This document shows, piece by piece, positions 8,636 to 62,274 of a DNA stretch of 64,000 nt. Under the pieces are notes generated by a model. The model did not search any database. It was not told where the DNA came from and saw only the letters and a program-made list of their open reading frames with translations. Made by a program: the position numbers and the translations under genes. The first letter of the stretch is position 1; each line of letters starts with the position of its first letter. Source of the DNA: Microglena sp. YARC (lineage: Eukaryota; Chlorophyta; Chlorophyceae; Chlamydomonadales; Chlamydomonadaceae); assembly GCA_022414725.1 (NCBI GenBank), contig CM039462.1:17508577-17572576 (forward strand). The letters run 5' to 3'.

Positions 8636-8763
8636 GAGTCTACCTGTGGGGCAGCGTTGGTAGTGGCAAGAGTCTCCTCATGGACTTCTTTTATGAGGCT
8701 GTCTCAGAATCTCTAGGCATGAAGCACAAACGCCGCATGCACTTCAATGCAGCCATGCTGGAG
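8636..8763 (+). CDS. AFG1: AFG1 exon with Walker A motif
   Basis: The acceptor is CACAG|GAGTC and the donor is GAG|GTGAGT. It reads [13 protein letters not shown], the nucleotide-binding P-loop, then [10 protein letters not shown] and [12 protein letters not shown]. The codon is split after its first base at the acceptor and the exon ends in phase 0. The intron upstream is the 97-bp satellite, whose unit copies this exon's first 38 bases. Confidence 0.9.
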
Positions 8764-11700
8764 GTGAGTGTCGGGATGTGTGGGGCTGTGTGGAGTAGGG
8801 TAGTGAGAGTAGTTGAACGTAGAAGTGCTGCATACAAAACAAACACTCATGTGCACTCACACCCACAATCGTACACACAAACATACACACGCATACACAC
8901 ACATAAACAAACACATGCACGTACATAAACACACACATGCACGCACATAAACACACATACACACACAGACATACACATACACACACAAACACACACATGC
9001 ACAAACACACACATACAGACACACACACACGCACACCCATGCGCACAAGTGTACGCACAGGCAAACACAAACACACACACAAACACACACACACACACAC
9101 CTGCATACATAACAAACACACAACACACACACACACACACATAAACACACACATGCACACACATACTCACGCACACACAAACACACATGCACACATTTAC
9201 AAACCTGCGCACACGAACACACATGCACACACATGTACACACACTCACACTCACATAAACACATACGTACGCACGCACACATGCAAACCTATTTTCCCCC
9301 AGGTGCACTGCCGCTGCATCGCATGGACAGGGAACGCACACTCACGCCACACCCCAGTCACACAACAATTCACACCCACACAGACACACACACAGACGCA
9401 CATGCACATGCCAATTTCCCCAGGTGCACTGCTCCCCCCCCCCCCCCCCCCCCCCTTGCATGCACAACACACACACAATATTCCCCCAGGTGCACTGCCG
9501 TATTTAGTTTTAGCTTTTTTTGGTTTTAGCAGGTGCACTGCAATCCATGACAGTAACCATGCCCTGAAGTTGTTGAGCCAGGAGGCCGAGGACAACGCAA
9601 TGCAGTCAAACAGTGGGGATGACCCACAAACACACACACGAGCACACACATAATATATACACGCACAACGCCTATTTCCCCCCAGGTGCACTGCCGTTTG
9701 CATCGGATAGACAAGGACCATGCCTTCAAGTTGTTGAGCCAGGAGGCTGATGACAACGCAATGCATTCAAACAGTGGAGATGACACACAAACACACACAT
9801 GAACACACACGAGCACACACATAAATATATACACACGCACACGCCTATTTCCCCCCCGAGTGCACTGCCGTCTGCATCGGATGGACGAGAACCATGCCTT
9901 GAAGTTGTTTAGCCAGGAGGCTGAGGAGTGCAGCATTCAAACAGTGGAGATGACACACGCTCAAACACGCACATGAACACACACACGAGCACACAATAAA
10001 TGTATACACACACACACACACACACACACCTATTTCCCCCAAGGTGCACTGCCGTCTGCATCGGATGGACAAGGACCATGCCTTGAAGTTGTTGAGCCAG
10101 GAGGCTGATGACAACGCAATGCATTCAAACAGTGGGGATGACACACAAACACACACATGAACACATACGTGCACACACATTAATAAATACACACACACAC
10201 AACTATTTCCCCCAAGGTGCACTGCCGTCTGCATTTGGATGGACAAGGACCATGCCTTGAAGGTTGTTGAGCCAGGAGGCTCGATGACTTCAATGCATTC
10301 AAACAGTGGAGATGACACACAAACACACACATGAACACATACGAGCACACACATTAATAAATACACACACACACACGCCTATTTCCCCGAAGGTGCACTG
10401 CCGTCTGCATCGGATGGACAAGGACCATGCCTTGAAGTTGTTGAGCCAGGAGGCTGATGACAACGCGATGCATTCAAACAGTGGGGATGAGGAGGAGGAA
10501 GAGGAGGAGGAAGAGAAAGATGTGGACAAACCCCTCCGAAAATATTGAAAGTAAGCAGGGCATCTTCAGGTGAGACAAGAGTTGGCAGTTGTTTTGTTTT
10601 TGTTTTTTTGTTGTGCGATTATGCTATGTTGTGTTCTAGTCTATCATGTAATGTATTGTGTTATGTAGTATATTATGAAATTGTGTCGTGTCGTGTCGTT
10701 ACGATGTGTGCACTCATCTTCAGGTGAGACAAGCGTGTGAACACTTTACGATCCCGACCTGCATGATTTGGAGCTGCACGATCTGCAGATGAGTAGTGAA
10801 CGGCAATATGATACCATGGCTTTGTATGATATAAAGTCATCATATGATATTGTACGATGCTGGCAGTCTGGCTAGGTTAGGTCACCATTTATGTGCAATA
10901 TCATGTCACGCAGTTTGTATGCTATCATATGATATCATACTCGCCTTTGGTCAACATAATATGATTTTGACATACGAACACGCACGCTGGCAAAAGGCAG
11001 GCTCCGCTCCCTAATCCCTAACAAATTTGTCAACTGCAGGTATTGGGATGGTGAGATGGCATGACAGAAGAGCGACAGCAATACTGGCAGCTTCACCACA
11101 CACCCGCACACACACACACACACACACCCGCGCACACACATGCACACGCGCACACTGCAGGCAGAAGGCAGGCTTATCCCTAACCCTAACACATCGTAAA
11201 CTGCAGGTATTGGGATGGTGAGGATGGCAAGACATAAGGCATCAGCAATAATGGCAGCTTCACCACACACCACACATACCTACCACACTCCCCCCCCCCC
11301 CCCCCCCAATACACACACAGCAGGCAGAATTCAGGCCCCATTCCCTAATCCCTAACGAATTGTAAACTGCAGGTATTGGGACGGTGAGATGGCACGACAG
11401 AAGAGCGCCAAAGCTGCCTTTTTGGCAATCAGAAGACACCTCAGGTACCTTTTGCTTTAGAACGCATGATTTATGTAACAAAAATATATGCTTTATCTGG
11501 CTTTATAATCAATTGTATGTATACCGGTAATACAAATAATATTAGGCCATGCTTGACAATGAATGGTGAATGCTTTATAATGTCATGCTTTAAAATGGAT
11601 GATTGTTTTTGGCGGTCAGAAGATACCTCAGGTACCTTTTGCTTTAGAATGCATGTTTAGCTGGAATGTAACAAAAATATATGCTTCGTCTGGCTTTTAT

Positions 11701-15799: not shown

Positions 15800-15843
<44 letters not shown>

Positions 15844-18137
15844 TCTCTTGTCCTTTATGTCCAGTGGGACAAGTGGGGCAGGCGACCCTTTGTGAATGCA
15901 AAGGGTTGCTTGCCCTACTTGTAAGCGCAGCTAACTGAGCTTCGACATTTATGATGACAACTTGAGTCAAAAAGGAATAGGAAAACCAGGGTCTGCATGT
16001 TTATCTCTTTGACCCTCTTTGAATCTCTTCGAGCGCAAAGAATCCATTTATGTGATCTGCTCTCTTATATTTGTGTGGTCTGTTCCATTTGTGTGATCTA
16101 TTCCATTTGTGTAATCTGTTCCATTTGTGTGACCTGTTCCATTTGTGTGATCTGTTCCATATGTGTGATCTGTTCCATTTGTGTGATCCGCTCTATCTGC
16201 TCTCTTAAAGCACATCATATAAGCTGTGATCCTCGCATCTCTCCTATTCCTAGTCTCCATATAAGTCTCTTATACTTTGGTCACCCCTAATCATTCTTGC
16301 GCAAATGGCAAGAATGGCTGCTGACTTTATTCGCATCTTCCATATTATCATATTATATAATAGCTTCGCAGCATAGCATCATGCCATAATATATCATCAT
16401 ATCATAGCATCATAGAACAACCTCATAGCATCATAGCATATTATATCGTCATAGCATCATTCCATATAATCATATGGCCACACTAAACAGTATTTTGTTC
16501 ATTGAATGTCCACTTTGGCCAAAAATACAACTTTTTCCTATTAGAGTTTAGCTCATCCACAGATGTGACAGAACCGTAAAGGATATTTTTGTAACATATG
16601 GCCCAGTAAGGTTTTTGGCCCCCCCCCCGTCGCTTATGATTTGTTTGGTTTCAGTTCACCAGTGCTCGTGCTCGGAGTGGGCCCAGATTCACCCCGTTGT
16701 CCTTTTGACAGTCCAACCGAACAACGACTGAGGCGAACCTGACACGTCAGCCAACTGTCTCGTTACTAATTGGCTTTAGTCAGCTCAATCCTTGCCACCT
16801 GTCGTTCCGGTACCAAGACTCTCCGCCAATTTTCCGCGTCGCTTGCAACACTGCATGGGACTTGATTTAGTAGAGCCATCTAACCCTAAGAACTCCTGAT
16901 ATATTTTTGTGTAGCCATCAACATCCGTATTGTTTTTGCTTCACTGTCAACTGCCATGGTAGCTTTGTCCAGGTAAAGTAGCAGCCCGCTCTCTACCGCC
17001 GTAAACAGGGCTCCCTTTATACCATGTCCCACCAGGCGTTCTCATCTCATTACATAAGTGTCGCCATCAACATCCGTATCATATGATTTTTGTGCAGATG
17101 GCAAGAATGTCAGCGGACTTCATACGCGGCCAAAACAACCCTAGCCATGTACAGGCTGGCAGTGAAGGAATGAAGGGCACACAAGAAACGGAGCATGATC
17201 GAGTCTTTGCTATCATGTGCTTTGACGAGATGCAGGTAGGGGAGGGCAGGTGGTAGGGGAGGGTAAGGTGCTTGGACAAAATGCAGGTAGGGTAGGTGGT
17301 AGTGTACAGTAGGGTGCTTTGACAAAATGCAGGTAGGGGAGAGTAGGTGGTAGGGTAGGGTAAGGTGCTTCGACAAAATGTAGGCAGGGTAGGTCGTAGG
17401 GTAGGGTAAGGTGTTTGGACGAAATGCAGGTAGGGTAGGTGGTAATGTACAGTAGGGTGCTTTGAAAAATTGCAGGTAGGGGAGAGTAGGTGGTAGGGTA
17501 GGGTAAGATGCTTCGACAAAATGCGGACAGGGTAGGTGGTAGGGTACAGTAGGGTGCTTCGACGAGATGCAGGTAATGTTCACCATTCATTAGTTGGACC
17601 TTGTGCGTGCAACACAGTTTCCTTTTTGGGCTACGCATGGCAGCTTCCATCCAGCTCCAATAGGAAGTCGCTGGTTCAACTTGAAAGCTTTCAGCTGCAT
17701 TGGAATAATGGAATGCCTGTCATGTTTGCTATCAGATGCAGTACAGGGATATGCAGTACAAGGATTTGGCGTGGTCGTCGCGTGCTAGAGGCAACGTGGC
17801 TGTCGCCCAGGTGCCACCTCACCAACTTGCTGGTGAAAGCGCGCGATGCCCTCGAACTGTTCAAACATTAAAAATCGTGGCAACCACCGTCATGTTTGCT
17901 ATCAAATGCAGTAGCTAGCATCAGGTTTGGCCCAAGGACAGGGGAAATGAGCTGTCTCAAAGCTGCTAAGCGTAGCCGGAAACAAAACTGTGGCACACAA
18001 AAATACACATGAAGCATACACAAACTCATACACCGAAAGACACACACAAACAGACAGTCCAACCAACAGTTCTATGTGGCAGTGTTAATTACTGATGAAT
18101 TTACTGAGTAACTAACTGATTAACTGTCTGACTGATC

Positions 18138-18174
<37 letters not shown>

Positions 18175-21100
18175 ATTAGCTGATTAACTGACTGATTTTA
18201 TGGCTGGCTGGCTGGCTAACTGACTGACCAACTTGCTGGTTAACTGAATGACTGGCGGTCTGGATGACTGACTGCCTGGCTAACTGACTGACCCACCGAC
18301 TGACTAACTTACCGATTAACTGACTCACTGCACGCCTCAGTTCAAAGCAGCCGTGATGCCCTATGACCAGACACCCGAGCATAGTTGTGTGCCTTATTTA
18401 TTTTGCAAACACTTTGACTGCTATTTTACCTTTATATTATTTTATTCATATTCTATCTATGTTTTATTTTATTTATTTTGCAACAATTTGACTGCTATTT
18501 GATCTATATTGAATGTTTATGTTGCCTGAGCCTATGTATCCCGGCAGGACCGCTCTTAACGTGTGTTAACCATTTCTCCGCAAGCAAGCTGACAGCCAAA
18601 CAAACAGACACAAATAAATAAATAGTACCCTGTTATGAAGTGTGAGGTTGAGGGGGGCAGCCCGTATGCTTGCTCTGGGGTGAACCACCAAAAACAAAAA
18701 TAGCACCAAAAACAAAAACAATCACAAAAAGCAACCACAAAACAGAAAACCACCAACAACAACCAAAACAATCACTAAAACGACCACTGAAAAAAACGAT
18801 TGGCCTCCACAGGTATCAGATGTCTTCAGTGCAGTAGCCTTGAAAGGACTGATGGAAGTGTTGACCTCAAGTGGCTGTGTGGTGGTTTGCACCAGCAACA
18901 GGGCTCCTAGGGATCTGCCTCAACATGGGCTACATGAGGCAATGTTTGAGCACTTCATTCAAACGTGAGGATGAGACATAAAATGATGTGGGCCAAGTGG
19001 GAGGGTGTGGGAAAGCATGTGGGATGAGTGGGCACTGTTTCTTTTGGGGCTTCACGCAGCAGCTTCTATGAAGCTCCCTTCCCCCATCCTTAGGCTAAGC
19101 CAAAAGTTAGCTAGTGAGTCTCGACGCTGACAGGGTTGGCATTCCAATGGAGCTGAAAGCTATGGGATTGGCCCAGTGACTGGCCGATGGAGAATGCTGG
19201 AAGCTGCCATGCGTAGCCTCAAAAATTAACAGTGTGAGCGGGAGGTCATGTGGGACGAGTGGGTGGGCATGATGTGGGATGAGTGGGAGGGCAGCTTTTT
19301 TCCTCATCAAATGAGGGGCGGGAGTGAAAGTGTGAGTAGGAGTTGGAGGAGATCATATCTTTCTATGGCTGCAGATGGGGGTAGGGGGGTAGGGAGAGAG
19401 GATGGTAGGTGGCAGTGGTAGTAGTGGTAGGTGATGGTGGTGGTGGGCAAATACCAATCCCCCCCCCCCCCAACATATCTGTACCTGTTGGCTAGGTTAC
19501 CCATATATTTTGCACACACACACACACACATGAGGACGTGCTCCTCATTCTATGGCCGTAGATGATGCATTAGAAGAGATTGCATTCGCGTATTTGATTA
19601 TGGTTGGCTAGTGGGCATGTTGGTGGGTGGGTGGGTTAGATGTTAGGGGTGGAGGTATGTTCTCACATGTTGGTGGGTGGGTGGGTTGGATGTTAGGGGT
19701 GGAGGTATGTTCTCACATGTTGGTGGGTGGGTGGGTTAGATGCTGGGGATGGAGGTATGTTTGCACATGTTTATGGGTCAGACTCCTGGCATAGCCTGTG
19801 ACATGGGCACTCTCTTCTAGAAACGCACTGGCTTCTAGACCCACATATGTAGGGTAAGGCAAAGTTAGTAAATATTAGTGAATGAGTAATGTTAGTGGAA
19901 CAAGTTTGCAACGTGGCATAGCACAAGCAACCTGTGTGTGTGTTTGTGTGTGTGCACATGGGTGTGTGGGTGTGGGTGTGGGTGTGGGTGTGGGGGGGGG
20001 GGGCACCGTGGAACAAGTTTGTTCATATTAGAGTGACTAGCCGTCTCGCCAGAATTATGAATTTATTTGAAAAACTAATGCAAATGTGACACTACAATAA
20101 CATTACCGGTAGTTAATATTCGTTTTTCAAACACTAATATTAGTTGCCGTTCCCTACACATATGGACCCAGACTAACCTAATGGTTGCAACGCAGGCTGC
20201 CCTAATGCTCCTTATGCTGATTACTTGGCGAGCGTCTCTCTTGAATTTAATTTGAATTTGAATTGATTTTATAACACTTTTCTGTCAGCTAGCGTGTTCA
20301 CCTTTGTTACATATGAACACACATAGATACATAAATAAAGAGAAGTCTTATTACGAGGCATGAGGTTGAGGGATTCATCCCGTTTGCTTGCACTGGGGAC
20401 AGGCATCAAATATGAACCCTGACCACGAGCTGACCACCATAGTTTTTCTTTGAAGCTACAAGCCGCAGCTTCTGAGCAGCTCCCTGAGCCAGCCACCCGG
20501 CTGAGCCCCAAGATTTCAGCAGTTCTGGGAAGATGATGCTGTCAGCTTCCAGATGCAATATGTTTATAGAAGTTTGGCTGGGTAGCATTCCAGGGGAGCT
20601 ACTTAGAAGCTGCTGCTCGTAGCTGAAAAACAAAGCTATGACACCAACCTCATTACCCCTGGCCCCCTTGATGTAGGATTGAAACAAGTTGCGAGGTAAT
20701 CGAGCTGACTTCGGAAAATGACTACCGGCGTTTGATGCTGGAGGATGCAGCTCGCTTCATCGTTCCCTCACACACTCACACACACTCGTCCACTTCTGAT
20801 GAATTCGCCAAACTGCTTGCTGGCCGCTCGTACCTCCAACCAGAGGGGTCGCAAAGCAGTACAATGCTTGAGCTGCTGTGGCAGCAGGTGGTTCAACAGG
20901 AAGTACAGCGTACCACGAATAGGGGGCCTAGCCCAAGTATCTCCCCTCGCCCCCTCTCCATACCTGTCATGTTCGGGCGCACATTGGATGTCCCTTCATC
21001 AGTGGGGGGCCTTGCCCGGTTCAAGTTTACAGACCTGTGTGCTGTCCCATTGGGGCCTGCCGACTACATCGCGGTAGCGTCACACTTCCACACAGTATTC

Positions 21101-24100
21101 ATCAGTGATGTACCGCTCATGAGTATGCAGGTACGGCTTGAGGGTTATATGTGTGCTTGTGTGCGTTTATGTGTATGTGTGTGTTTGTGTGCATGTATGA
21201 TCACTGATGAAGCAGTAGTTAATGAGTATGCAGGTAAGGCTTGGGGGTGGCGTCACACTTCCACATTGTATTCTTCACTGATGTACCGCTCGGTAGTATG
21301 CAGGTACGGCTTGAGGTTTATATGTGTGTGTGCGTATATGTGTGTTTAAGTGTGTGTTTGTGTGTGTATGATCACTGATGCACCGCTCATGAGTATGTAG
21401 GTCCGGCTTGAGGTTCATATGTGTGTGTGCGTATATGTGTGTGTTTAAGTGTGTTTGTGTGTGTATGATACTGATGTACCGCTCATTAGTATGCAGGTCC
21501 GGCTTGAGGTTTATATGTGTGTGTGCGTATATGTGTGTGTTTAAGTGTGTTTGTGTGTGTATGATCACTGATGTACCGCTCATTAGTATGCAGGTCCGGC
21601 TTGAGGTTTATATGTGTGTGTGTGCGTATATGTGTGTGTTTAAGTGTGTTTGTGTGTGTACGAACACTGATGTACCGCTCATGAGTATGCAGGTCCGGCT
21701 TGAGGGTGGCATCACACCTTATCGCCGTCTTTGCCTTTCATGCACTTCTTGCACTTCAAATTCCCCTTCTGTTGCCTGTCTGTGAATTGAAGGTATTGTG
21801 GAGGGTACAGGTTGGAAGGTGGTTGGAGGGTTCAGGTTGGAGGTTATTTATTCATTCCAGGTCATCCTTGGTGGTTGGCCCCAGTGCAAGCAAACTAGCT
21901 GGCCCCCTCAACCTCTCGTCTCGTAATAAGGCATACTATTTATTTATTGGTTCATTTATTTATTTATTTGTCACTCACAGCATTGTGCCTCCATTCCCCA
22001 TCTATTTTTCAGATCCGAGACCAAGCCCGTCGATTCATCACCTTGATCGATGAGCTGTACAACGCTCGAGTACGACTTGTCTGTACTGCTGCAGTAGCGC
22101 CAGATCAATTATTCAGAGGGGCAGAGTCAGATGAGCCTATTTTGGACTTAGAACAGCTCCAATTCGAAAGTGCGGTAGAAGGTGAGAACTTATTTAAGGA
22201 TTTGAATAAGGTGTTTCATTTCTGGCTTTTTAATCAATCTTGGACTTATAACAGCTCCAATTCGAAAGTGCGGTAAAAGGTGAGAATATATGAAGCGTAT
22301 TTGAAAGTCAGCAGAAAACGTATAAAGTATATTTGAAAAAATCAGCAGAACACAATTGAAGCGTATTTGAAAAAGTCAGCAGAACGCAGATGCAGCGTAC
22401 TTGAAAAGGGTTTATTTTCTCACTTATAAACCAACTTAGAGCAGCTCCAATTTGAAACTGCAATAGGAGGTGAGAACTTATTAAATCAAGTTCAAATCAT
22501 CTCCTGAACTGCTTAAATCATTAATCTGTCCTTCGATTAACATATCCATGCATCTCCTCTCCTCCACACCCTCTTCTATCCAAGTCTTCTTTCTGTTACC
22601 TTGACACGATACGTGGGACCCCGTTTTGGCCAAAACTTTCGCTACCTTGACACCAACCCCCCCGGGGCAGCCCTTCGGGCGGCCCTATCTAAATCACTAC
22701 CTGGACCCCACCTTCGGGCGGCCCTATCTAAATCACTACCTGGACCCCACCTTTGGAAAGTGCCAAATCCCTGAAAGCTACCAGAAGACACCCTTTCTGA
22801 AAGAACAACAAGTTCTATGCAGCGTCGGAAGCGACGCTAAAAATTGGCTTAGACTGTTTGCATCGGAGCGACAGGTGTCAACGGAAGCGAGTTAGTTACG
22901 AGACCGTTGGCTGACATGTCAGGCTTAGTCTAGGTGAGACAGATGGTCGCTGGTCGGTCGGTCGGACACATGGGTAACCCTGGGGGCTCCCGCCCCCTTG
23001 GAGAGGGGGCTCCGCCAAAAAAACTCTGCTTCCACCAACCATCCTTTGGTCTGTTATCTTATCATGTATCCATCAATTTGTCTGTTCATCTATCCATCTG
23101 TTTGTCTGTTCATCTATCCATCCATTCGTCTGTTAATCTATCCATCCATTTGTCTGTTCATCTATTTATCCATTTGTCTGTTCATCTATCCAGCCATGTG
23201 TTCATCTATCCAGCCATCTGTTCATCTATCCAGCCATCTGTTCATCTATTTATCCATTTGTCTGTTCATCTATCCAGCCATCTGTTCATCTATCCAGCCA
23301 TCTGTTCATCTATCCAGCCATCTGTTCATCTATTCAGCCATCTGTTCATCTATCCAGCCATCTGATCATCTATCCATCCATTTGTCTGTTCATCTATCCA
23401 GCCATCTGTTCATCTATCCAGCCATCTGTTAATCTATCCATCCATTTGTCTGTTCATCTATCCAGCCATCTGTTCATCTATCCAGCCATCTGGCTGTTCA
23501 TCTATCCAGCCATCTGTTCATCTATCCAGCCATCTGTGCATGTATCTGTCTCCCCTACCAACTATTTCTACCTACTGCTGGCCATCCATCATCTTTCCAT
23601 ACACCCCTCCAGATGGGGGCTATTTCATACTCCTAAAATATTATTCTTGGGGGTGGAATTGAATTCAGATTGGATTTTCATTTTGGATTGGATTTGATCT
23701 GGATTGGATTGATTTTGGGATTTGGGTTGGATTTTGATTGAAATGGATTGTTTTTGTGTGTCTGCCTGTGACTACGTGCATGCAACATACGTACTGCCTG
23801 TGACTATATACTGCCTGTGACTGTGCATCCAACATACGTACTGCCTGTGACTTCCGAGCATGCAACATACGTACTGCCTGTGACTATATACTGCATGTGA
23901 CTACGTGCATGCAACATAGCACCCATTAACCCGGTCACCTAAACAATTGTCTTCCTGCAATTGCGCTTCAGATGGAAGGCTGCGAAGGGACGTCATGACA
24001 GCAGGAGGAGTGGCGCCCGTTGCCTCTTCACCAGCAGCTGCAAGGGAGGCAGCCGCAAGGTTGGGGGGTGCTGAGGAGCAGTTTGCATTCAGGTAGGTCA

Positions 24101-50889: not shown

Positions 50890-51066
50890 CTATTTTGCTG
50901 GTGCCCCGCCTGTCTTATCTTCAATACCCATCTTGGCGGCAGCCTTCGACATGGACTCAGCTGTCTTGTCGGCCCATTTGTTCATCCCACCCATGAACTT
51001 GCCGAAACCTGTCTTGGTGGGCTTAGAAGCTGGGGGTGGGCTTCCACCCCTCTCCTCAAACTCCTT
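50890..51066 (-). CDS. probable TBC gene terminal exon
   Basis: The acceptor is TGTGCGCAG|AAGGAG. 58 codons and TAG: KEFEERGGSPPPASKPTKTG, then FGKFMGGMNKWADKTAESMS and KAAAKMGIEDKTGGAPAK. The phase fits a direct join to VLKQ of the previous exon. The amphipathic AESMSKAAAKMG helix is not diagnostic. That this exon is real is supported by edge copies on both its sides. That it belongs to the TBC gene is inference. Confidence 0.65.
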   Translation of the reverse strand, partial: KEFEERGGSPPPASKPTKTGFGKFMGGMNKWADKTAESMSKAAAKMGIEDKTGGAPAK

Positions 51067-54000
51067 CTGCGCACACCAGCGTAGGATGTGTGAGTGTGAG
51101 TGTGAGTGTGTGTATATGTCAAGTCCTGAGGAACGACGATAACAGAGCTAGGGGTGGGCTTCCACCCCTCTCCTCAAACTCCTTCTGCTCATGCCATAGT
51201 AGGACGTTTGTGTGTGAGTGTTAGTGTTTGTGCATCTGTCAAGTCATGAGGAACGAAAAAAGCCAAAGCTGGGGGTGGGCTTCCACCCCTCTCCTCGAAC
51301 TCATTCTGGCACGCCTAAGTAGGATATGTGAGTGTGTGTATGAGTGTGTTAAGTAATGAGCAACCACGATAGCCGAAGCTGGGGGTGGGCTTCCTCCCCT
51401 CTCCTCAAATTCCTTCTGCGCACGCCAGCGTTGGATGTGTGAGTGTGTGTGTGTGAGTGCGTGTGCATATGTCAAGTCATGAGGAACCACGGCAGCCTGC
51501 TGGGGATGGGCTTCCACCCCTCTCCACAATATCCTTTTGCACACGCCAAAGTAGAATGTGTGAGTGTGTGTGTTTTAGAGAGTGTGCGTGAGAGAGAGAG
51601 TTTGTGTGATTGTGTGTGTGTGTTTGAGAGTGTGTGTGTGTGTGCGTCTGACTGTCTGTCAAGTAATAAGGAACGACGATAGCTGCTATGAATGTATGAA
51701 TGTTACAGTCCAGGGTTAGGCCAAATAGGCTAATGGGACTTGCCCAACCGTGACAGGAAGGTTTATGCTAGTTTGTACTCCTGTGGTACCTAAATTAAAA
51801 CAAACTATGTAACAGGGGTCTGAGAATGGATCGAATCAACATAAATTATCTAGTTGTCCTTGATAATCGTACTTCCGTCGTATCCTTGCGATTAGCTAGG
51901 GACCAGATTTTAGTGTGCTTGTTAATAGGACCTTCAGATAGTAATAGTAATGATAACGCCTGATGGGGCGTGGTGTTAAGGGAGCCCGTCGTACGCGGGT
52001 GGGGAGCAGTCTCCTACCTCAACTGGACAAGCTACCATCGCTGTTGACAACAACCTGCAACGCCAAGAGCGACCGAAGGGGGAGTCGAACCCCCGACTCT
52101 TCATCCTCAAGCGATCTGGTCTACCACTAGACTATTGTATATCACTGAAAGGGGCTTCTTCAGATTGTACGGTATATAGTTATCCATAGCTTATTTGAGG
52201 AAGGGCAAGTCCCTTTAGCCTAATTGGTTCCCCCATGGACTGTAACATGAAAACGCTTTGGACCTCTCTTGAAGGGGTGGCCACAAGGGATTAAAGTGGG
52301 AGAAACTAACTTACAATTAAAAACCGGTATAGAGATGAAAACTAACTTACAATTACGATTAAATTTCACATTACATACCAGTATCTCTATACCTGTATCT
52401 CTATACCGGTTAAAAAAAATAAAAAAAATATATATATTATAATTATAATTATAATTAATTGTATCTCCAATGGTGCCTAATTATTGGCCTTTTGGGACAG
52501 ACGGTTTTGACCCATGGACTACAGTCCAGTGAAAACAAAAAAGTGCTACGAAGTTGCTTAACCACATCATCTCAACACATAAATACTTGGATTTGGATAT
52601 GCTCAGGGTTTGTGAACCAGATGAAGTAAACCAGATGAACCAGATGAAGTTTTTTTCTTCACTATGGGGGTCCCTAATTCAGGACAGATTTCACACAAAT
52701 GAGGGACGGAGCCAACCGCAGTCAATTTTTATTTTTTTGAAAATTGAATTAGGTAGGCCTGTTTTTCACAGCTTCCCTTACAAGACATTGTCACAGCAGG
52801 TTGTGGAAGATACTGTGCAGGCCGTACGGGCTGTACAAAGCCAAAAATCACTGAGTATTTGCACATTTTGGGCCAATTTAGGAGTCCCTCATTATGGTAC
52901 AAGCTGCACAGCCACAACTGCATCGTTTTGTGTCTTCGTCTTTTCAGCGAAGGGAACGGTATCACTTTTCGAAAAAAATGAAATTTGAAATTTGAAATTT
53001 CAAATCCCAATTTCAAAAAATATTTAAAAAACAAACTTTCTTTTCTTTTCTCATCAAACATCCACATCTGAAGTTGGATTTTGATTTGGAAAATTTCCAG
53101 GTATAGACCGAACAGGCAGGTGGAACGCTGGTATCGGCCGAAATGGCAGGTGGAATTGCTATTGCAGTTCACTCAGAAGCCGAGGCTGAAGCGCAGCCTC
53201 CGACCTTGCGGTAGGGGCTAGATATGCCTTTCATCCCGCGGAAACTTGATTCGCGATATCTCGCGCGACCTCGTATTTGACGCGGATTGGATTTGTCCCA
53301 AAATATTTCGTACATCTCGTGTACTGCCAACTGCCTGCCGGCCTGGGCTGCTCGCGACCGAATGCCCATCTTCAAAAAAATTGGTGCGCGTCTAGCTGAA
53401 ACACTGATGAGAATCGCTATATAACCAGAATTCGATTCCGAGCATTTTGGGGTGTGTACGGCTCTGTCCCACACTCTTGTCCCGAATTAGGGCGTTTTGG
53501 GGATTAGGCACCATCGGAGATAATTATAATTAATATTATTATAATTAATATTAATTAATTATAATTATAATTATAATAAAACTGAATACGTTTTTTAATT
53601 AATAGGTCATTTTAAAGTTAAAACTAATTTTAGCTGAAATATATTGATATAAATTAAAAACCAATCTTACCTGCTTGAGGACCCTAAATTTGTCGATTGT
53701 AGCCATAGGCAGGCTGCCCACACCATCGAATGCCACGCTCATAAGCTTGTCACGGTTGTGCATTGACTGAGCCGCACCTCGCACCAGCATCACAATATCG
53801 CCTGTGGATAAGTCAAAGGAAAGCATTATAATTGAACATTGTGACATAAGACGTGAAGTTGAAGGAAACTTAGCTTGCACTGGGGAAGGTTACTGTGTGT
53901 TTTGTTTTCGCAGACCGCTACTGCGCTCGGACTAGCTCGGACTACCGTGTGAAAGCACGGGAGAAGGAAACATTGGAATTGTGGGGTTGCTTGCTGATAA

Positions 54001-54199
54001 TTTGATAAATCTTCAGCTGCCTTGGAGTCTGCTTGGAGGCATAGCTATCAGCATCAGCATCAGTAGCAGTAGCAGCATAATCAACATCATTATCATATAT
54101 CGACCGCGGATAAGTCAAAGCAAAGCATTATTGTTGAAGGGTTGCTTGCCCACACAACTTCAGTTGCGTTAAGTTTGGTTTTGCATTAAGGCGTAGCTG

Positions 54200-54247: not shown

Positions 54248-57200
54248 GTAGCAGCAGCATAATCAAATCAGCAGCATAAATATTGCTATTCTGATAATAT
54301 GCCTTGGTTACTTGGTTTGGTTAGATTACATGGCACATCAGGCAGCAGGCTGCTCACCGGCTGCAGGCGAAGCAAACATAGGTAATAAAAACACTACTAA
54401 ACCACACTCCTGAGAACAGAATGCAGTCACTTTTTTTCCAACAACGGGTTGCCATTCCGTCACTGCATGGCGATGCATAGGTCTGGCTAAACTAGTCAGA
54501 AATGCCCCCACTAACCCCCCAGGATCCGCGCTTTGCTATCCGCAGGGTGCAGCACGACACACTGGGGTGGAAACGAGTTGCTAAAAAAACAGTGAATGCA
54601 GCCACACAGGCGCTGACAATTTTTTTTAAAATACAAATTGTGAATGCAGTCACACAGGCGTTGACATTTTTTTTTCTTTCTAAAAATAGTGAATGCAGTC
54701 ACACAGGCGTTGACAATTTTAAAATTTTAAAATCAGCGAATGCAGTAACACATGGGTAGTGGTAAATGTTTGTTAGGTCGAGGGTCATTATCTCCTGCCC
54801 ACCCCAAGTGTGCATACTCTTTTGTCGGAGTAGCAACGCCATTCGAACTGAATCCTCAGTGTCGCTAGTTTGTGTCGGGAGACCCACCTCCTGGGGTGAC
54901 ATTCCTTTCACAACTTCAAAAACAAAAGGCGTTGACAAACTCAATGTTCTTATGTGCCTTGACTGATCTGCGTTATCACGAGGCTGTTGTCAATCAACGT
55001 AACAAGACTCTATCATTATTATGACTACATTATTGTGTGATTATATAACTTGACTGTCCTGCGTTATCACGAGGCTGATGTCAATATACCGGTACGAAAC
55101 AAGACACTATCATTATGATGACTACATTATTGTGTGAGTATGTGCCTTGACTGACCTGAGTTATCAGGAGGCTGATGTCAATATGCGCGACAAGATTACA
55201 TCATTATAAGGGCGGTATTATGATATTATCATGTTCCTTGACTGACCTGTGTTATCACGAGGCTGATGACAATTTACGGTACAAGACTATATAATTACAA
55301 TGACTGTATACTATTATAATCATGTATACTAGAATGATGTATATTATAATGATGTATATTATAATGACGTATATTATACTGATGTATATTATAATGATGT
55401 ATATTATAATGATGTATACTATAATGATGTATATTATAATGACGTATATTATAATGATGTATATTATAATGATGTATATTATACTGATGTATATTATAAT
55501 GATGTATATTATACTGATGTATATTATACTGATGTATATTATAATGACGTCTATTATTATGATGTATATTATAATGACGTATATTATACTGATGTATATT
55601 ATAATGATGTATATTATAATGATGTATATTATAATGACGTATATTATAATGATGTATATTATAATGATGTATATTATAATGATGTATATTATAATGACGT
55701 ATATTATAATGATGTATATTATAATGATGTATATTATACTGATGTATATTATAATGATGTATATTGTACTGATGTATATTATAATGATGCATATTGCACT
55801 GATGTATATTATAATGACGTATATTATAATGATGTATATTATAATGACGTATATTATACTGATGTATATTATAATGATGTATATTGTACTGATGTATATT
55901 ATAATAATAACGACTGTACACTGTATATTATAATTGTAACGACTGTATACTGTATATTCTAATGATGGTTTTTATATTGATGGTTATTATAATGACATAT
56001 ATTATAATGACGTATATTATAATGACGCATATTGTAATTATAACGACTGTATACTGTATGTTCGAATGATGTGATTATGTGCCTTGACTGACCTGAGTTA
56101 TCACAAGCAAGAATCTGCTCTTCCAAGGACTTCAGAATTGCCAGTCCTACTCGAAACAAGATCTTAGGGCCCTCATTAAAGAGGGCATCCCACACACGCA
56201 GAGCTGTCTCGGATGGCACTGAGGATGCAAAAAGGCACAAGTACCTGTACAACGGTGGTAGGGTGAGGTCGTGGTGGTGGTGCTGGTGTGTAGTGAGCGT
56301 GTGGGTTGGGTTGGGTTGGGTTGGGTTGGGTTGGGTTGGGTTGGGTTTGTGCACAACGTCACAACATACATATTTTCATTGTTTCATTGTCATAGACAGG
56401 CCATGGTAGACCCAAGACAAGCCCGCTCCACAACAACCGGGGATGGGTCTTCCAACCAAACAAAAATACATCCAGGGATGGGTCTTCCAGCCAACCAAAC
56501 CGACTAACCAACCAACCAAACAAGCATCCGGGGATGGGTCGTCCAACCAAACAAACAAACCAACATAACAAACAACATCTGGGAATGTGTCTTCCAACCA
56601 AACAAATCAACCAAACAGCCAAACAAATCAACCAACCAACCAAACAAATCAACCAACCAACCAAATCAACCAACCAAACCAACCAAATCAACCAAACAAA
56701 CAAATCAGCCAACCAAACAAATCAACCAAACAGCCAAACAAACAATCAAACAAATCAACCAACCAACCAAATCAACCAACCAAACCAACCAAATCAACCA
56801 ACCAAACAAACAAATCAACCAGACAGCAGCACGTAATTGACTTCAATACATGATTTGGTGCCATCAGCCTTAAGGGGACCTGATAGGTGGTGGCACAGTC
56901 TGTGAGCACCAATATTTATGGCACCGATATTGTATACCGGTGTGCAGTGTAGTATTTTGTGTAGAATATTGTGTAGTTGTTTAGTATACTGCATAGATAT
57001 TGTATAGCACCGATATTGTATATGTCTTGTAGATATTGTATAGTATACTGCATATATATTGAATATCCATGGAAACCAGGGAGCATACAAAGCAGATTGA
57101 GCAATTTGCCTCCTCTCGCATGTCCTACTCTAGGTTCCTTGAGTACGTCAACTGATGCGATACCCACGGAAAACAGGGAGCATACAAAGTGGATTGAGCA

Positions 57201-60200
57201 GTTTGCCTTTGTTACCCATCACATGGAAACCAGGGAGCACACAAAGCAGATTGAGCAGTTTGCCTCCTCTCGTATGTCCTACTCTAGGTTCCTTGAGTTC
57301 AGCGACTGATGCGATACACACGTAAACCAGGGAACAAACAAAACAGATTGAGCAATTTAAATTTAGACAATAAGAAAGTTGTTCTCCTAGCTAGAGTTGC
57401 TTGACCAGAGTATGTTTTTGTTTCAGAAAGGGGGTCTTCTGGTACAATGTTTTTTATTTCAGATTTCTGCTATCCAGGTTAAGTAGCTACTTGGGCTACT
57501 CAACCCTGATTTCAGGATAGTTGCGTAGCCATCATATGGCGGAGGCCGGGGGGCAGCGCGTTCCGGTATCGAGGGGTCTGGGGGGTGCAGCATTCGACGG
57601 AATGGCGACGGAATGGCGGCGCGTCGTCGAAAAAAGAAGCACTGTTCTGGTAGCGATGAGGGATTTGGTGTCTGTCAAGGATGGGCTTCTGGTACCGATC
57701 TGGGTAGGCGGCCTGAGAGGCCGGCCTGGGGGGGGTAGCGGAAGGTTTGGCCAAATCAGGATCCCAGGTAGCGATCGCTACTGGTGGCGGAAAAAAAGCT
57801 CTGTGCTAGACCCATACAATTAAACTGAACACCAGTTCCCAAAGAAAGCAGGCTATCATGTCAATAACAGCCTACCCTGCCTTTCCAAAAGGTGCCTACT
57901 TAGTAGGGATGTTTCCGCCTACTTAGTGGGAATATTTCCGCCTTTCTTTCTGAATCCTCAGTGGGCGCTGTTTTGTGTACAGGGTCCCACTTCCTGGGGT
58001 GAAGAGCAAGGGCAGTTGGCTTGGCACCAAACTGGCCAGGCCTGGGTTGCTGTTTTGTGTACAGGGTCCCACTTCCTGGGGAGAAGAGCAAGGGCAGTTG
58101 GCTTGGCACCAAACTGGCCAGGCCTGGGTCGCTGTTTTGTGTACAGGGTCCCACTTCCTGGGGAGAAGAGCAAGGGCAGTTGGCTTGGCACCAAACTGGC
58201 CAGGCCTGGGTCGCTGTTTTGTGTACGGGGTCCCACTTCCTGGGGTGAAAATACTACAATAACATAAGTACAAAAGGTGCTGCAACACGCTCACCAGTCA
58301 GTTGCAAGTATGCTGATGTCACAGTCCGTAACATTCAGATGAGCATGTAGCCTTGGCAGCTTGTTGGAGATCAGCTCATCCAATGCATTCATCTCAATCT
58401 GTAGGGTGAGAGTGTGGATTATCATTTGGATACAAAGTCCAATATGCACAGCCTTGGCAACTTGTTGGAGATCAGCTCATCTTATGCATTCATCTCAATC
58501 TATAAGGTGCGAGTGCGGATTGTCCTTTGGATAGCAAGTTAAATGTGCCCAGCCTCAGCACCTTGTTGGAGATCTGCTCATCCAACGCATTCATCTCAAT
58601 CTTTAGGGTGAGATATGAAACATGAGATAGCATTGATATGAGGCAAGAGGCATAGGATAACATTGGCATGGCACATGAGATAGCATAGACACTAATACAG
58701 GCATGCTAGTACAGGCATGGGACATGAGATAGCATTGACATGAGGCAAGAGGCATGGGATAACATTGGCATAGGACATGAGATAGCATTGACAAAGGTGA
58801 GGGTGGCAAAATGCTCGGCACACAAACACCCCGGGGGAGTGCGGATTACCATTTGGATACAAAGCTCAAAGTCAAAATGAGCCTAGCCTTGTTGTAGATC
58901 AGCTCATCCAATGCATTCATCTCAATCTATAGGGTGAGAGTGCGGATTATCATTTTGATAGTACGTTAAATGTGCCCAGCCTTGGAAAGGTGTTGGAGAT
59001 CAGCTCATCCAATGCATTCATCTCAATCTATAGGGTGAGAGTGTGGATTATCATTTGGATACGATTTCAACATGCACAGCCTTGGCAACTTGTTGGAGAT
59101 CAGCTCATCCAATGCATTCAACACAATCTGTAGGTGTGAGATATGAAACATGAGATAGCATTGATATGAGGCAAGAGGCATAGGATATCATTGGCATGGG
59201 GCATGAGATAGCATTGACGCTTATACAGGCTTGCTAATACAGGCATGCAGGAACACTTTTACTCGTACTAGTACAGGCATGCTATTATAGGCATGCTAAT
59301 ACAGGCATGCAGGCATACTTGTAATAGTACTTGTAAAGGCATGCTAGTACAGGCATGCTAATACAGGCATGCTAGTACAGGGATGCAGGCATACTTGTAA
59401 TAGTACTTGTATAGGCATGCTAGTACAGGCATGCTAATACAGGTATGCTAGTACAGGGATGCAGGCATACTTGTAATAGTTCTTGTACAGGCATGCTGGT
59501 AAAAGCATGCTAATACAGGCATGCTAGTATAGGGATGCAGGCATACTTGTAATAGTTCTTGTACAGGCATGCTAGTACAAGCATGCTAATATAGGCATGC
59601 TAGTACAGGCATGCAGGCATACTTGTAATAGTTCTTGTACAGGCATGCTAGTACAAGCATGCTAATATAGGCATGCTAGTACAGGCATGCAGGCATACTT
59701 GTAATAGTTCTTGTACAGGCATGCTAGTACAAGCATGCTAATATAGCATGCTAGTACGCAGGCATACTTGTACTCCCATGCAGGCATACTTGTAATAGTT
59801 CTTGTACAGGCATGCTAGTACATGCATGCCTCCCTTGTAGATATCAGCAGACTGACCGCACCTGACATCCCTCAAGGTTGCGTGAGTATGTGCCGGGGTA
59901 CAAGATGTCCTCAACGAGGGCGGACAAGAGCCAGAATGCATTCTCCTCGTTCCGGTTCATGGCGATCAACAGCAAGCCGACAATTACGTTCATGGAGCGG
60001 CAGTAGCCAACCTGAAGAGGAAATGTTGGTTGAGGAAAATGGTGGTGGTGGTGGTAGTGGAGGTGGTGGTGGTGGTGGGGGGGGGGGGGTGCTGGTGGTG
60101 CTGGTGGTGCTGATGGTAGTGCTGGTGGTGCTGGTCACGGCCGCTGTCAGCTCCCAGAGGAAGGTGCATGCGCTGAAGCTGTTAACAAACTCTGAGATGT

Positions 60201-62274
60201 TGGATGGGACAAGTAAGGAGGGGACTGTTTTAAGTGTGTATGTTATTGTAGGGGATGGTGGTGGGTGGGGGGGTAATTGTAAGGGGTGGGGGGGGGGTAG
60301 GGGGGTAATTGTAGGGGGTGGGGTGGGGGTAGGGGGATACATGTGTAAAGGATATGTGTCGGTGCAGGATTAAGTTCGAGGATCACAGTGGATCACAGAG
60401 GTTCAGGTCAAAATGGCTCTCAAACAGATTGCTCACACACTCCATCCTTTCCTCCCTCTCCCCCCACCCCCGCAGCCCCCCACCCAACCCACCCAACCCC
60501 ACCTTGCAGCCCCCCACCCACCTTGCTGAACCCCAGAAGACTCCCAAGGTGTAGTCTCCCCCTCCCCCCACCCCAACCCACAAACATGCACAAAGGCACA
60601 CATGAATAGGCACACACACATTTGGACATAAATGTCCACGAATATCGGTACGCACACACACAAACACAAACACAAGAATTCAACCACTGGAAGTTTCCAC
60701 TGTCATTTTGGCCCCAGCCATTTTGGCCCCAGCCAGTCCCCAGTGTCATTTTGGTGCTACCAGGGGCATCGATGTCCTGCGCTTCCACGCCAACGTCGAA
60801 AGGGGAATGTGAAGCAGCTCTGAGCACCGGGATAAAGAGGCTGTTTAACAGCTTCTAAGCCTTTCCTTTCCCCCGTCCTTGGGCCAGACCTGAAGCTAGC
60901 TAGTGCGTCTAAAAGTTGACATTACAGGCATTCCAATGAAGCTAGAATCTTTGGGCTTCACCAAGTGGCTGGCTAATGGAGCTGGCTGGAAGCTGCCGTG
61001 TGTAACACAAAAACGAAGCCTGGAAGTCCCTCAGCTAATAACGTGTTAAATCTACACGACTAGGATCACATTGTTGTTGTGCATGCTGTATGTGTATGTT
61101 GCTGTAGTCCAGGGGTAGCCAAATAGGCTACAGGGACTTACCCAACCAAGGTTTATAAGAGGGGCTAAATAATCAGCTCGCATCCGGCCGCGGGAGACTA
61201 ATGAGGGGACAAGGGCAAGAAGCCTGGGGCTGTGTAACTGTACTCAGGAATACGAACGTCATTCGAAAGGAAAGAAATGGGAGTACAGAAACAAGAGCCG
61301 TACCAGTCGTGTTGTCGGTGTCTTTTTGTCCCGATAAGAGATGCGGGGAGAATGGCCTGTAGGTTGGCCCATCATGGCATTCAGGGAAGTCTGGGACAGG
61401 GACCAATCCTGATGGTTAAATAAGGTCTACATTTGCGCAACCTGAGCTAGGCTTGCTAAGATCAGGATAAGAAACTACGACAGTGGGACGCGGTACTGTA
61501 GCAGTGGGAAGCGGCACATTACCACAGTGTGCCGTAACACGTAGCAAAAGCAAAGGCAAGTTCTTTACAATAAGGTCTACATTCGCGCAACCTGAGCCAG
61601 GCTTGCGTAGATCAGGATAAGAAACCCCGACAGTGGGACGCGGCACCGTAGCTGTGTACTACAAACGGGTAGTCAAAAAATTCGGTCTCAAAAAAGTCTC
61701 GGGAAACTGCTCTTGGTTTACACTAAAAAAAGTGACGAAGAGGACTCGAAGCTTATAGTCTAGTTTGGCACTAGTCTAACAGAACAAGCACTGATGAACT
61801 GAACCACAAACCATGATTTTATCGAGTTTGTGCTTGGGAGATAAACTTCAGTGATAAATTACCTTGTTTTTGTGCTACAGTGATAAATTACATTGTCGTT
61901 GTGCTGCAGTGATAAACTACAGTGATAAATTATCTTCTCGTTGTGCTACAGTGATAAACTACAGTGATAGATTACCTTGTCGTTGTGCTACAGTGATAAA
62001 TTACAGTGATAAATTACACTGTCGTTGTGCTACAGTGATAACTTTCCTAGCCGTTGTGCTAAAGTGATAAACTACAGTGATAGAATACCTTGTCGTTGTG
62101 CTACAGTGATACATCACAGTGATAAATTACCTTGTCGTTGTGCTACAGTGATAACCTACAGTGATAGATTACCTTGTCGTTGTGCATGCTGTAAGCAGAC
62201 AAGACACGAGTCAAGGCAGCCTGACCATCCTCCGTTTGAATCCATGCATGAGTTGGGAAGGTGTGTTGGCAGTC
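50890..62274 (-). CDS. TBC-domain (Rab-GAP family) protein, six exons, 5' end missing
   Basis: Exons in transcription order: 62274-62173, 60011-59862, 58398-58295, 56244-56093, 53801-53671 and 51066-50890. All have GT-AG borders and matching phases (0, 0, 2, 1, 0). They read DCQHTFPTHAW...AYSMHNDK; VGYCRSMNVIVGLLLI...ENAFWLLSALVEDILYPGTY; LDELISNKLPRLHAHL...ILAT; DWYLCLFASSVPSETALRVW; EEQILACDNSG; DIVMLVRGAAQ. This is the TBC fold of Rab GTPase-activating proteins. The catalytic Arg finger (DxxRTFP) is DCQHTFP and the Gln finger (YCQ) is YCR, so both are replaced and the protein is probably not a conventional GAP. The last exon (KEFEERGG...APAK, stop) joins in phase but is assigned by position only. 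Further 5' exons must lie upstream. Confidence 0.85.
51067..51560 (-). repeat. tandem acceptor-edge copies of the terminal exon
   Basis: Four further copies of CCACCCCTCTCCTCAAACTC then CTTCTGCGCAC (minus strand: 3' splice site plus the start AAGGAGTTTGAGGAG) at about 51170, 51285, 51400 and 51520, each followed by GTGTGAGTGTG tracts. Period about 115-120 bp. Acceptor CAG is retained or mutated (CATGAG, CCAG). Confidence 0.92.
51695..51770 (+). repeat. dispersed repeat D fragment
   Basis: ACAGTCCAGGGTTAGGCCAA then GGGACTTGCCCAACCGTGAC. An inverted counterpart lies at 52200-52250 on the other side of the SINE. Confidence 0.6.
51944..52157 (-). mobile_element. tRNA-derived SINE with 12-bp target duplication
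   Basis: On the minus strand it has box A TAGTCTAGTGGTAGA and box B GGTTCGACTCC. The tail is CAGGCGTTATCATTACT. Flanking CTTCAGAT(A/T)GTA lies at 51932-51943 and 52158-52169. It is nearly the same sequence as the 28.5-kb copy. Confidence 0.9.
52200..53670. other. TBC intron, AT-rich, no exon recognised
   Basis: Inverted repeat D (52200-52250), (ATA/TAT)n at 52415-52460 and (ATAATT)n at 53518-53580. The segment 53100-53480 is GC-richer and without stops in places, but shows no recognisable domain. Confidence 0.5.
53671..53801 (-). CDS. TBC gene exon (DIVMLVRGAAQSMHNRD)
   Basis: The acceptor is TATCCACAG|GCGATA and the donor AAGCAG|GTAAGA. It is phase 1 in and phase 0 out. It reads GDIVMLVRGAAQSMHNRDKL then MSVAFDGVGSLPMATIDKFR, the C-terminal helices following the TBC core. 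Confidence 0.85.
53802..54590. repeat. TBC intron: flank duplication and (CAT)n
   Basis: GGATAAGTCAAAGGAAAGCA (53806) is repeated as GGATAAGTCAAAGCAAAGCA (54108), so the sequence just outside the exon's acceptor is duplicated. (CAT)n at 54198-54246. Confidence 0.65.
54590..54920. repeat. 41-bp minisatellite then repeat B
   Basis: Four units of AGTGAATGCAGTCACACAGG separated by T-runs (54590-54745), then a repeat B copy (54755-54920). Confidence 0.75.
54950..55275 (-). repeat. donor-edge array of the TBC W-CLF exon
   Basis: Four copies of TGTGCCTTGACTGACCTGAG then TTATCACGAGG (minus strand: GATAACTCAG|GTCAGTC) at about 54955, 55042, 55140 and 55232. The authentic exon end is at 56093. Confidence 0.9.
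55310..56040. repeat. 15-bp array (TGATGTATATTATAA)n
   Basis: About 40 units with ACTGATG, GACGTAT and other single-base variants. Since 15 is divisible by three, both strands stay open for about 200 codons (Met/Ile/Tyr on plus, Tyr/Asn/Ile/His on minus). No start context or domain supports translation. Confidence 0.92.
56093..56244 (-). CDS. TBC exon (WYLCLFASSVPSETALRVWD)
   Basis: The acceptor is TTGTACAG|GTACTTG and the donor AACTCAG|GTCAGT. It is phase 2 in and phase 1 out, 50 codons. LCLFASSVPSETALRVWDAL then FNEGPKILFRVGLAILK is the highly conserved TBC W-CLF..SLP.ETTLRVWD.LF.EG..VLFR.ALA.L segment. Confidence 0.92.
56285..56825. repeat. (GGGTT)n, dispersed repeat J and (AACCAACCAAATC)n
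   Basis: (GGGTT)n at 56304-56346. Bases 56385-56465 match the MRNIP intron at 32945-33015. GGGGATGGGTCTTCCAACCA recurs at 56440, 56478, 56527 and 56580. (ACCAACCAAATCA)-type repeats run to 56820. No exon is seen. Confidence 0.8.
57065..57350 (+). repeat. exon-like tandem repeat, two and a half copies
   Basis: GGAAACCAGGGAGCATACAA followed by AGCAGATTGAGCAATTTGCC and CTCTCGCATGTCCTACTCTA occurs at 57068-57145 and 57224-57300, with shorter pieces at about 57170 and 57325. In one frame each copy reads ETREHTKQIEQFASSRMSYS then RFLE. The source exon, if any, was not identified. Confidence 0.6.
57920..58250. repeat. 82-bp minisatellite
   Basis: Three and a half units of GCTGTTTTGTGTACAGGGTC, CCACTTCCTGGGG and AGGGCAGTTGGCTTGGCACC. 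The GAATCCTCAGTG...CTTCCTGGGGTGAA frame resembles the end of repeat B, so the array may be seeded in a repeat B copy. Confidence 0.88.
58295..58398 (-). CDS. TBC exon (LDELISNKLPRLHAHL)
   Basis: The acceptor is CCTACAG|ATTGAG and the donor GACTG|GTGAGC. It is phase 0 in and phase 2 out. It matches the family DQRVLDELV.E.LP.L..HL...D..LLAT.W. The Trp codon is split across the next intron. Confidence 0.88.
58399..59150 (-). repeat. acceptor-edge array of the TBC LDELI exon
   Basis: Five extra copies of CTTGTTGGAGATCAGCTCAT then CCAATGCATTCATCTCAATC and TGTAGGGTGAG (minus: CCTACAG|ATTGAGATGAATGC...) at about 58465, 58570, 58890, 58990 and 59090. Most retain CTACAG or CTATAG. Between them is a GAGATAGCATTGACATGAGG repeat. 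Confidence 0.93.
59150..59840. repeat. GCATGC-rich minisatellite
   Basis: CAGGCATGCTAGTACAGGCATGC-type units of about 14-18 bp within a roughly 70-bp higher period (ACTTGTAATAGTTCTTGTAC recurs). GCATGC palindromes occur throughout. Confidence 0.9.
59862..60011 (-). CDS. TBC exon with altered Gln-finger motif
   Basis: The acceptor is CCTCTTCAG|GTTGG and the donor TGTCAG|GTGCGG. 50 codons, phase 0: VGYCRSMNVIVGLLLIAMNR then NEENAFWLLSALVEDILYPG. The conserved YCQGMN is YCRSMN, so the catalytic Gln is replaced by Arg. Confidence 0.9.
60030..60350. repeat. (GGT)n/(GGGGT)n low complexity
   Basis: GGTGGTGGTGG-rich from 60040 to 60130, then GGGGGGTAATTGTAGGGG repeats at 60245-60340, on either side of an ordinary roughly 110-base segment. 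Intronic for the TBC gene. G-rich on plus, i.e. C-rich on the transcript. Confidence 0.8.
60838..61015. mobile_element. MITE family A copy, ends degraded
   Basis: GCTGTTTAACAGCTTCTAAGC...AGCTGGCTGGAAGCTGCCGT. The interior GACATTACAGGCATTCCAAT matches the family. Confidence 0.6.
61100..61845. repeat. dispersed repeat D pieces and 150-bp duplication
   Basis: Repeat D fragments lie at 61105-61165 and 61785-61845. AAGGTCTACATTTGCGCAAC...AGGATAAGAAAC is duplicated at 61423 and 61571. No exon is seen. Confidence 0.6.
61845..62172 (-). repeat. donor-edge array of the TBC Arg-finger exon
   Basis: About nine copies of TTACCTTGTCGTTGTGCTAC plus AGTGATAAACTACAGTGATA (minus: CACAACGACAAG|GTAATCTATCACTG). 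Spacing is about 20-60 bp. Many retain AAG|GTAAT, giving a ladder of potential 5' splice sites. Confidence 0.93.
62173..62274 (-). CDS. TBC exon with altered Arg-finger motif
   Basis: The acceptor (minus) is ATGCAG|GACTGCC and the donor GACAAG|GTAATC. 34 codons: DCQHTFPTHAWIQTEDGQAA then LTRVLSAYSMHNDK. The family pattern is DLPRTFP.HPWL....G..ALRRVL.AYS..NP. His (CAC) stands where the catalytic Arg is expected, one base change from CGC. Confidence 0.87.

Follow-up and report, generated by a model that had tools for sequence, protein, structure and literature searches.

Local direct copies of exon edges in introns and gene flanks of Microglena sp. YARC

A stretch of 64,000 nucleotides (nt) from the genome of the green alga Microglena sp. 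YARC (hereafter the window; C1:17508577-17572576 of an assembly of 568 Mb in 2390 contigs) was analyzed for repeated exon edges. Its protein relatives likewise suggest a chlamydomonadalean alga. Three genes were considered in the window, and their identity was supported by Pfam: AFG1 (AFG1_ATPase, 4e-62), MRNIP (MRNIP, 1.3e-24) and a TBC gene (RabGAP-TBC, 2.3e-45). In these genes and in seven genes sampled elsewhere in the genome, between roughly a quarter and a third of all exon edges examined possess extra local copies in the adjoining intron or flank, often including intact decoy splice sites. Pervasive local tandem duplication combined with one-sided selection, perhaps with a bias towards edges, is proposed as the underlying process, with an estimated probability of about 0.7.

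Copied exon edges in the window and elsewhere in the genome

In total, 36 exon edges were placed in AFG1, MRNIP and the TBC gene by tblastn with homologous proteins and by means of AG/GT sites. Exons A5 to A10 of AFG1 were additionally backed by the EukProt gene model P0001 (99% identical over 72% of the query), which begins at A5, without the earlier AFG1 exons, and, as judged from the sequence, probably derives from the same species as the window DNA. An edge was regarded as copied when its left and its right 30-nt arm both had a match in direct orientation no farther than 5 to 6 kb away. Loose, mid, strict and very strict match levels were applied, and the reversed flank served as control.

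Local direct copies spanning the edge were detected for 19/36 edges at the loose, 18/36 at the mid and 14/36 at the strict level, compared to 0/36 for the reversed flanks at each of these levels. At the loose level, acceptors (9/17), donors (7/15), the start edge (1/1) and stop edges (2/3) were involved. Among the matches listed, copies were located outside the exon, i.e., upstream of acceptors and the start and downstream of donors and stops. The original prediction, made from the letters of the window, had named about twenty exon edges with extra copies in direct orientation outside the authentic exon; the number is close to the observed one, and position and orientation were borne out among the matches listed. 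For 17/36 edges no copy was found at the loose level, and the TBC stop edge (50889) has an exon-end copy nearby, yet no copy spanning this edge was found. The larger arrays were recovered as tandem repeats by Tandem Repeats Finder (TRF) and classify as intronic minisatellites (by definition, units of about 10-500 bp), and several edges feature one or two copies only. The predicted range of two to about 66 copies is close as well: a single extra copy was found at several edges, and the unit of AFG1 exon A1 yielded 55 matches.

The window itself had been chosen as striking. For comparison, 27 other loci of 10 kb (20 evenly spaced, 7 at random positions) were sampled, and open frames therein were ranked by coding score. 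Seven genes with placeable edges, originating from 7/27 loci, were modelled and confirmed by Pfam, namely those encoding aldolase, ABC1 kinase (ABC1K), eEF3, cohesin SCC3/STAG, casein kinase II beta (CK2B), peroxidase and an ankyrin protein. Confirmation of eEF3 refers to ABC_tran only; the name of this gene and its exon order are presumed. Edges outside the window were placed via reading frame, AG/GT sites and known relatives. Two edges of uncertain position (ABC1K K2 donor, SCC3 S3 acceptor) were not counted, nor were the unplaced edges of other recognised or suspected frames, i.e., histone H3 (L008), an LRAT-like frame (L009), the L026 gene, ankyrin frames (L022, L029) and retroelement-like frames (L030). 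Loci without a recognisable gene are likewise outside the counts, and contig-end loci (L001-L003) were not used. Gene recognition was a matter of judgement and the ABC1K frame is itself lengthened by copies, which may introduce a bias. Runs of N present in some loci inflate the composition survey. At L008:4853-9699, a histone H3-like frame (Pfam) lies beside several long open frames.

Outside the window, copies were present at 13/56 edges at the loose, 12 at the strict and 8 at the very strict level, with 1, 0 and 0 for the reversed control. At least one copied edge was found in 6/7 genes, among them eEF3 (1/14 edges) and SCC3 (1/21). For CK2B, no copied edge was found at the loose, strict and very strict levels. 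The peroxidase exon (L022:2400-4300) possesses 16 donor-edge copies downstream at the loose level (8 at the very strict level) and four acceptor-edge copies upstream. Pooling of all 92 edges from 10 genes and 8 stretches resulted in 32 copied edges at the loose, 26 at the strict and 21 at the very strict level (reversed control 1, 0 and 0), distributed over 9/10 genes. Acceptors (15/41) and donors (13/41) were affected alike at the loose level.

Composition and origin of the arrays

Exons and copies recorded for the three window genes are given below (window positions, strand, description and basis).

8636..8763, plus strand: AFG1 exon A1 (Walker-A exon), acceptor 8635, donor 8763; tblastn with P0002/P0007
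2206..8531, plus strand: A1 array, units of ~97-103 bp, acceptor region plus ~36 nt of exon start; 55 genome matches (E <= 0.001)
10393..10569, plus strand: AFG1 exon A2, one-base frame break near 10540; tblastn, translation versus P0002
9302..10340, plus strand: A2 acceptor copies including as much as ~100 nt of exon start; offsets -1090, -707, -533, -349, -176
10700..10740, plus strand: A2 exon end and donor, one copy; offset +154
11373..11444, plus strand: AFG1 exon A3; tblastn
11010..11270, plus strand: A3 acceptor and exon start, two copies; offsets -333, -166
11605..11665, plus strand: A3 exon end and donor, one copy; offset +187
17098..17235, plus strand: AFG1 exon A5, weak single acceptor-edge copy near 16304; P0001 alignment, offset -793
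17243..17575, plus strand: A5 exon end and donor array, ~46 bp unit, 5 copies; TRF, copy search
20677..21130, plus strand: AFG1 exon A7; P0001 alignment
21200..21705, plus strand: A7 exon end and donor array, ~97 bp unit, 6 copies; copy search, TRF
22013..22181, plus strand: AFG1 exon A8, two copies of the donor edge (about 22279, 22469); tblastn, copy search
24257..24344, plus strand: exon A10, the last of AFG1, with one copy of the acceptor near 24159 and three of the stop edge (about 24524, 24603, 25189); tblastn, copy search
32355..32403, plus strand: MRNIP first exon, weak single start-edge copy near 32225; offset -129
33131..34747, plus strand: MRNIP last exon, with stop-edge copies downstream, 457 bp tandem unit at 34817-35701; TRF, Pfam, copy search
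50890..51066, minus strand: TBC last exon T6; tblastn with P0121
51090..51574, minus strand: T6 acceptor and exon start array, ~121 bp unit, 3 copies (4 by exon half); copy search, TRF
53671..53801, minus strand: TBC exon T5, weak single acceptor-edge copy near 54103; tblastn, copy search
56093..56244, minus strand: TBC exon T4, donor edge 56092; tblastn
54950..55305, minus strand: T4 exon end and donor array, ~91 bp unit, 4 copies; copy search, TRF
58295..58398, minus strand: TBC exon T3; tblastn
58430..59141, minus strand: T3 acceptor and exon start, ~101 bp unit, 5 copies, 5/5 keeping AG; copy search, TRF
62173..62274, minus strand: TBC exon T1; tblastn
61850..62160, minus strand: T1 exon end and donor array, 8 copies; copy search
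62330..63300, minus strand: T1 acceptor and exon start, 7 copies; copy search

The frame break in A2 (10520-10545) adjoins CCGAAAA and is probably an assembly indel; the translations 'GIFR' ahead of the donor and 'YWD' past the acceptor both agree with P0002. A second AFG1-family gene is encoded in the same genome (G000:C2:69543323-69549915). Further features of the window are minus-strand open frames at 28812-30740, which by eye appear leucine-rich-repeat-like and lie in a tandem array with a unit of 69 bp (23 codons) at 28887-30321, a 961-aa open frame at 37954-40839 with a CCHC-like motif (gag-like by eye, probably a retrotransposon), and a satellite-like array at 45899-49484 (152-bp unit, 23.7 copies, 98% matches).

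The array units are of local origin, genome-wide for the one unit searched in this way and within the sample for others. All 55/55 genome matches of the A1 array unit (E <= 0.001, 568 Mb) were found at its own gene, on one strand and within 2206-8531; the search tool applied skips very common words. Furthermore, 18/21 array units were without a match in another locus of the 364-kb sample. Units with matches elsewhere in the sample were the A3, T1 and P1 acceptor stretches, and these matches look like interspersed repeats within the respective stretches. Introner-like mobile elements carrying splice sites and inserted beside exons would also account for units that recur in introns together with splice-site sequence. 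However, the units hold the host gene's own exon sequence and are local in the cases just described, which makes such elements extremely improbable; for the largest array, a mobile introner was rejected on the basis of its matches at the own gene.

On the exon side, copies extend over a median of 39 nt; on the intron side, the median is 254 nt, with the query limited to 300 (30 edges). Extension over a whole exon was observed in one borderline case, A3 (72-nt exon), and in a loose alignment. The best edge-spanning alignments showed 64 to 100% identity, with unit lengths differing. An assembly artefact, in which reads or alternative haplotypes were wrongly expanded, was considered, since the assembly has gaps and seems to contain small indels (AFG1 A2, FBA F3). 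This spread of identities and unit lengths and the recurrence of the pattern in 6/7 genes outside the window argue against it, and an artefact is therefore regarded as highly improbable.

On average, AG/GT was kept in 77% of the copies (21 families, exon-half search) and in 88% when a shift of up to 2 nt was allowed. The individual arrays range from 2/25 copies with the acceptor AG in the A1 array (copies found by exon half) to 8/8 peroxidase donor copies and 5/5 T3 acceptor copies. Arrays with many intact sites, such as the latter two, might suggest that decoys are kept by selection in order to regulate splicing or to buffer splice-site loss. A retention of 77% is, however, roughly what the copies' identity predicts (by eye, no formal test), and 23/25 copies of the largest array lack AG; selected decoys are accordingly judged to be very unlikely. 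Across the 21 families, no sign of decoys being generally purged or specially kept was observed (no formal test).

Edges, introns and exon interiors compared

Local duplication was found to be abundant in introns. At the strict level, a local direct copy was present at 38% of 3919 intron points, as compared to 201/3919 for the reversed control, in agreement with the strong bias to tandem duplication that had been predicted for this genome. For 17% of the 3919 points, a copy was located within 150 nt of an exon edge; therefore, close to half of the intron points with a copy are tied to edge neighbourhoods. Exon interior points carried copies less frequently, namely 27 at the very strict, 39 at the strict and 65 at the loose level, of 476. 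Exon interiors are not spared entirely, and the original prediction that they are copied only as far as one edge is to be qualified: the tail of the MRNIP last exon (33782-33979) contains an in-exon tandem repeat with a 93-nt (31-codon) unit. Hence, duplication in the exon interior is present where the frame is kept.

Per base, edges are copied at about the intron rate. When simple sequence was excluded, 89 edges were compared to matched intron points, and 18 copied edges versus 14.2 expected (z 1.2) were obtained at the very strict, 23 versus 20.9 (z 0.6) at the strict and 29 versus 26.6 (standard deviation 4.1, z 0.6) at the loose level. Without the simple-sequence filter, values were below expectation (26/92 versus 28.9, strict; 32 versus 38.7, loose). 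This comparison hides founders, given that every intron base lying in an array is a copy from the outset. Since each array is counted many times in the per-base test, a once-per-array measure, in which an intron point is weighted by 1/copy number, as well as a bootstrap and simulations were added. Once per array, 7.1, 11.6 and 16.0 copied edges were expected and 21, 26 and 32 of 92 were observed at the very strict, strict and loose level, corresponding to ratios of 2.95 (1.88-4.06), 2.24 (1.52-3.06) and 2.00 (1.43-2.61). These ratios remained stable when any single gene was dropped and amounted to 2.36, 1.90 and 1.75 after removal of interspersed repeats. The predicted seeding of arrays at exon edges, and the comparison of junction copies with intron points that had been suggested as its check, thus received a divided answer in the sampled genes: no clear excess per base (29/89 versus 26.6), and a two- to threefold excess (2.0-3.0) once per array.

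Exon edges, or their surroundings up to a distance of about 60 nt, might represent true hot spots with about 2-3 times as many starts or retained duplications as elsewhere in introns, on top of a background process. Bootstrap intervals above 1 and the stability of the ratios support this explanation, as do the window edges at a sequence complexity of at least 35, where copies were found at 0.46 to 0.62 of edges (n=24) versus 0.29 to 0.35 of intron points (n=591). In one simulated setting, moreover, 15 to 30% of events forced to edges reproduced ratios of 2.0 to 2.8, and an enrichment of tandem repeats near intron-exon junctions of Chlamydomonas reinhardtii and Volvox is described in the available text of PMC3887541. 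On the other hand, a denser setting with 10% of events at edges resulted in a ratio of 1.02, and window edges at a complexity of at least 40 (n=6) were not above introns. The copy frequency profile climbs smoothly from exon over edge to intron, with at most a slight edge bump at the very strict level and no clear sharp peak. Outside the window, the once-per-array ratios were 2.42, 2.00 and 1.64 with lower bounds of 1.17, 1.19 and 0.97 (very strict, strict, loose), and addition of the complexity filter led to 1.70, 1.94 and 1.71 with lower bounds of 0.71, 1.00 and 0.89. Undetected old insertions in introns could furthermore dilute the comparison. Taken together, a moderate edge bias is likely, and unproven; true hot spots are plausible at somewhat below even odds. 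The fuller version, in which edges are genuine hot spots in this lineage with about twice the array starts of a uniform process, and introns grow through a ratchet that stacks redundant, often intact splice sites, is put forward tentatively and ranks slightly lower still. It had been expected that the conserved exon copy alone gives an about twofold enrichment; this was rejected, as the simulations reach at most 1.5.

Introns at array-bearing edges are longer, with a median of 1629 nt (n=17) versus 563 (n=18; Mann-Whitney p=0.0007), whereby the two SCC3 introns beside S3 were left out of the test. Outside the window, the medians were 1470 nt (n=5) versus 534 (n=15; p=0.008).

Based on these results, tandem duplication with one-sided selection could operate as follows. 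Non-coding DNA would undergo local tandem duplication at a high rate, with units that measure from some tens up to a few hundred bases and are amplified later. A unit within an exon or covering a whole exon would alter the protein and usually be lost, whereas a unit crossing exactly one edge would leave an intact exon and splice site and might be tolerated. The location of the copies outside the exon, in the window as well as at the other loci, agrees with the predicted survival of edge-crossing duplications beside one intact exon. The authentic site would then be the last copy for acceptors and the first for donors. Redundant edge pieces would accumulate in introns and flanks, so that introns lengthen over time, and decoy splice sites would decay at an approximately neutral rate, while splicing presumably stays with the copy on the full exon.

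Several observations weigh against this scenario. The lower exon-interior rate rests on few genes, and MRNIP alone has copies at 13, 15 and 31 of its 101 interior points (very strict, strict, loose). A uniform process by itself leaves part of the data unexplained, as simulated uniform duplication with selection gave edge ratios of 0.6 to 1.5 versus 2.0 to 3.0 in the data; the simulation is our own and simple. For the window genes alone, intron length did not differ (n=12 versus 3, p=0.63), and greater length may be the cause of the arrays and not their consequence, longer introns offering more room for copies. The predicted growth of introns by stacking is in line with the longer introns at array-bearing edges in the pooled genes, the window genes by themselves showing no difference.

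Relation to known systems

Local duplication with one-sided selection would provide a route by which introns can grow independently of transposons. Moreover, the arrays represent a natural splicing experiment, in which near-identical sites differ mainly in their position relative to the full exon, and in genomes of this kind, decoy edges may mislead gene prediction as well as the mapping of short reads. If edges are true hot spots, the spliceosome must choose the whole-exon copy among up to dozens, and positional splice-site choice would be directly testable in a natural setting.

As described in the available text of PMC4974935, the model in which introns are gained by tandem genomic duplication (Rogers 1989; Hellsten et al. 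2011) likewise involves tandem duplication of splice-signal sequence. In that model, a new intron originates from the duplication of an AGGT segment within an exon, whereas the copies found here sit in existing introns or flanks and no new intron was seen; the link to AGGT-type intron gain drawn in the original prediction is therefore unsupported. The same text reports an intron gained in the potato RNA-dependent RNA polymerase (RdRp) gene by duplication across an intron-exon boundary. The duplicated unit, consisting of acceptor and exon start, shows the geometry of the acceptor cases described here. The potato case represents one event leading to a new intron, while here both edge types, arrays of up to 55 matches and 9/10 genes are concerned.

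Introns of C. reinhardtii and V. carteri are repeat-dense, and tandem repeats are commoner near their intron-exon junctions, according to the available text of PMC3887541; the high density resembles the present findings, and the enrichment would correspond to the likely, unproven edge bias. Repeat motifs were counted in that study, and units with exon edges are not stated in this text. Introners, as presented in the accessible part of PMC9860276, share repeated intronic sequence with splice sites; they differ by copying themselves into many genes, while the units in Microglena are local. In the literature searched, no report of exon-edge arrays of the present kind was found (most subscription papers being outside reach). 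The geometry of single boundary-crossing duplications is thus known, and what is new is the scale, with 32/92 edges affected, some of them in long arrays.

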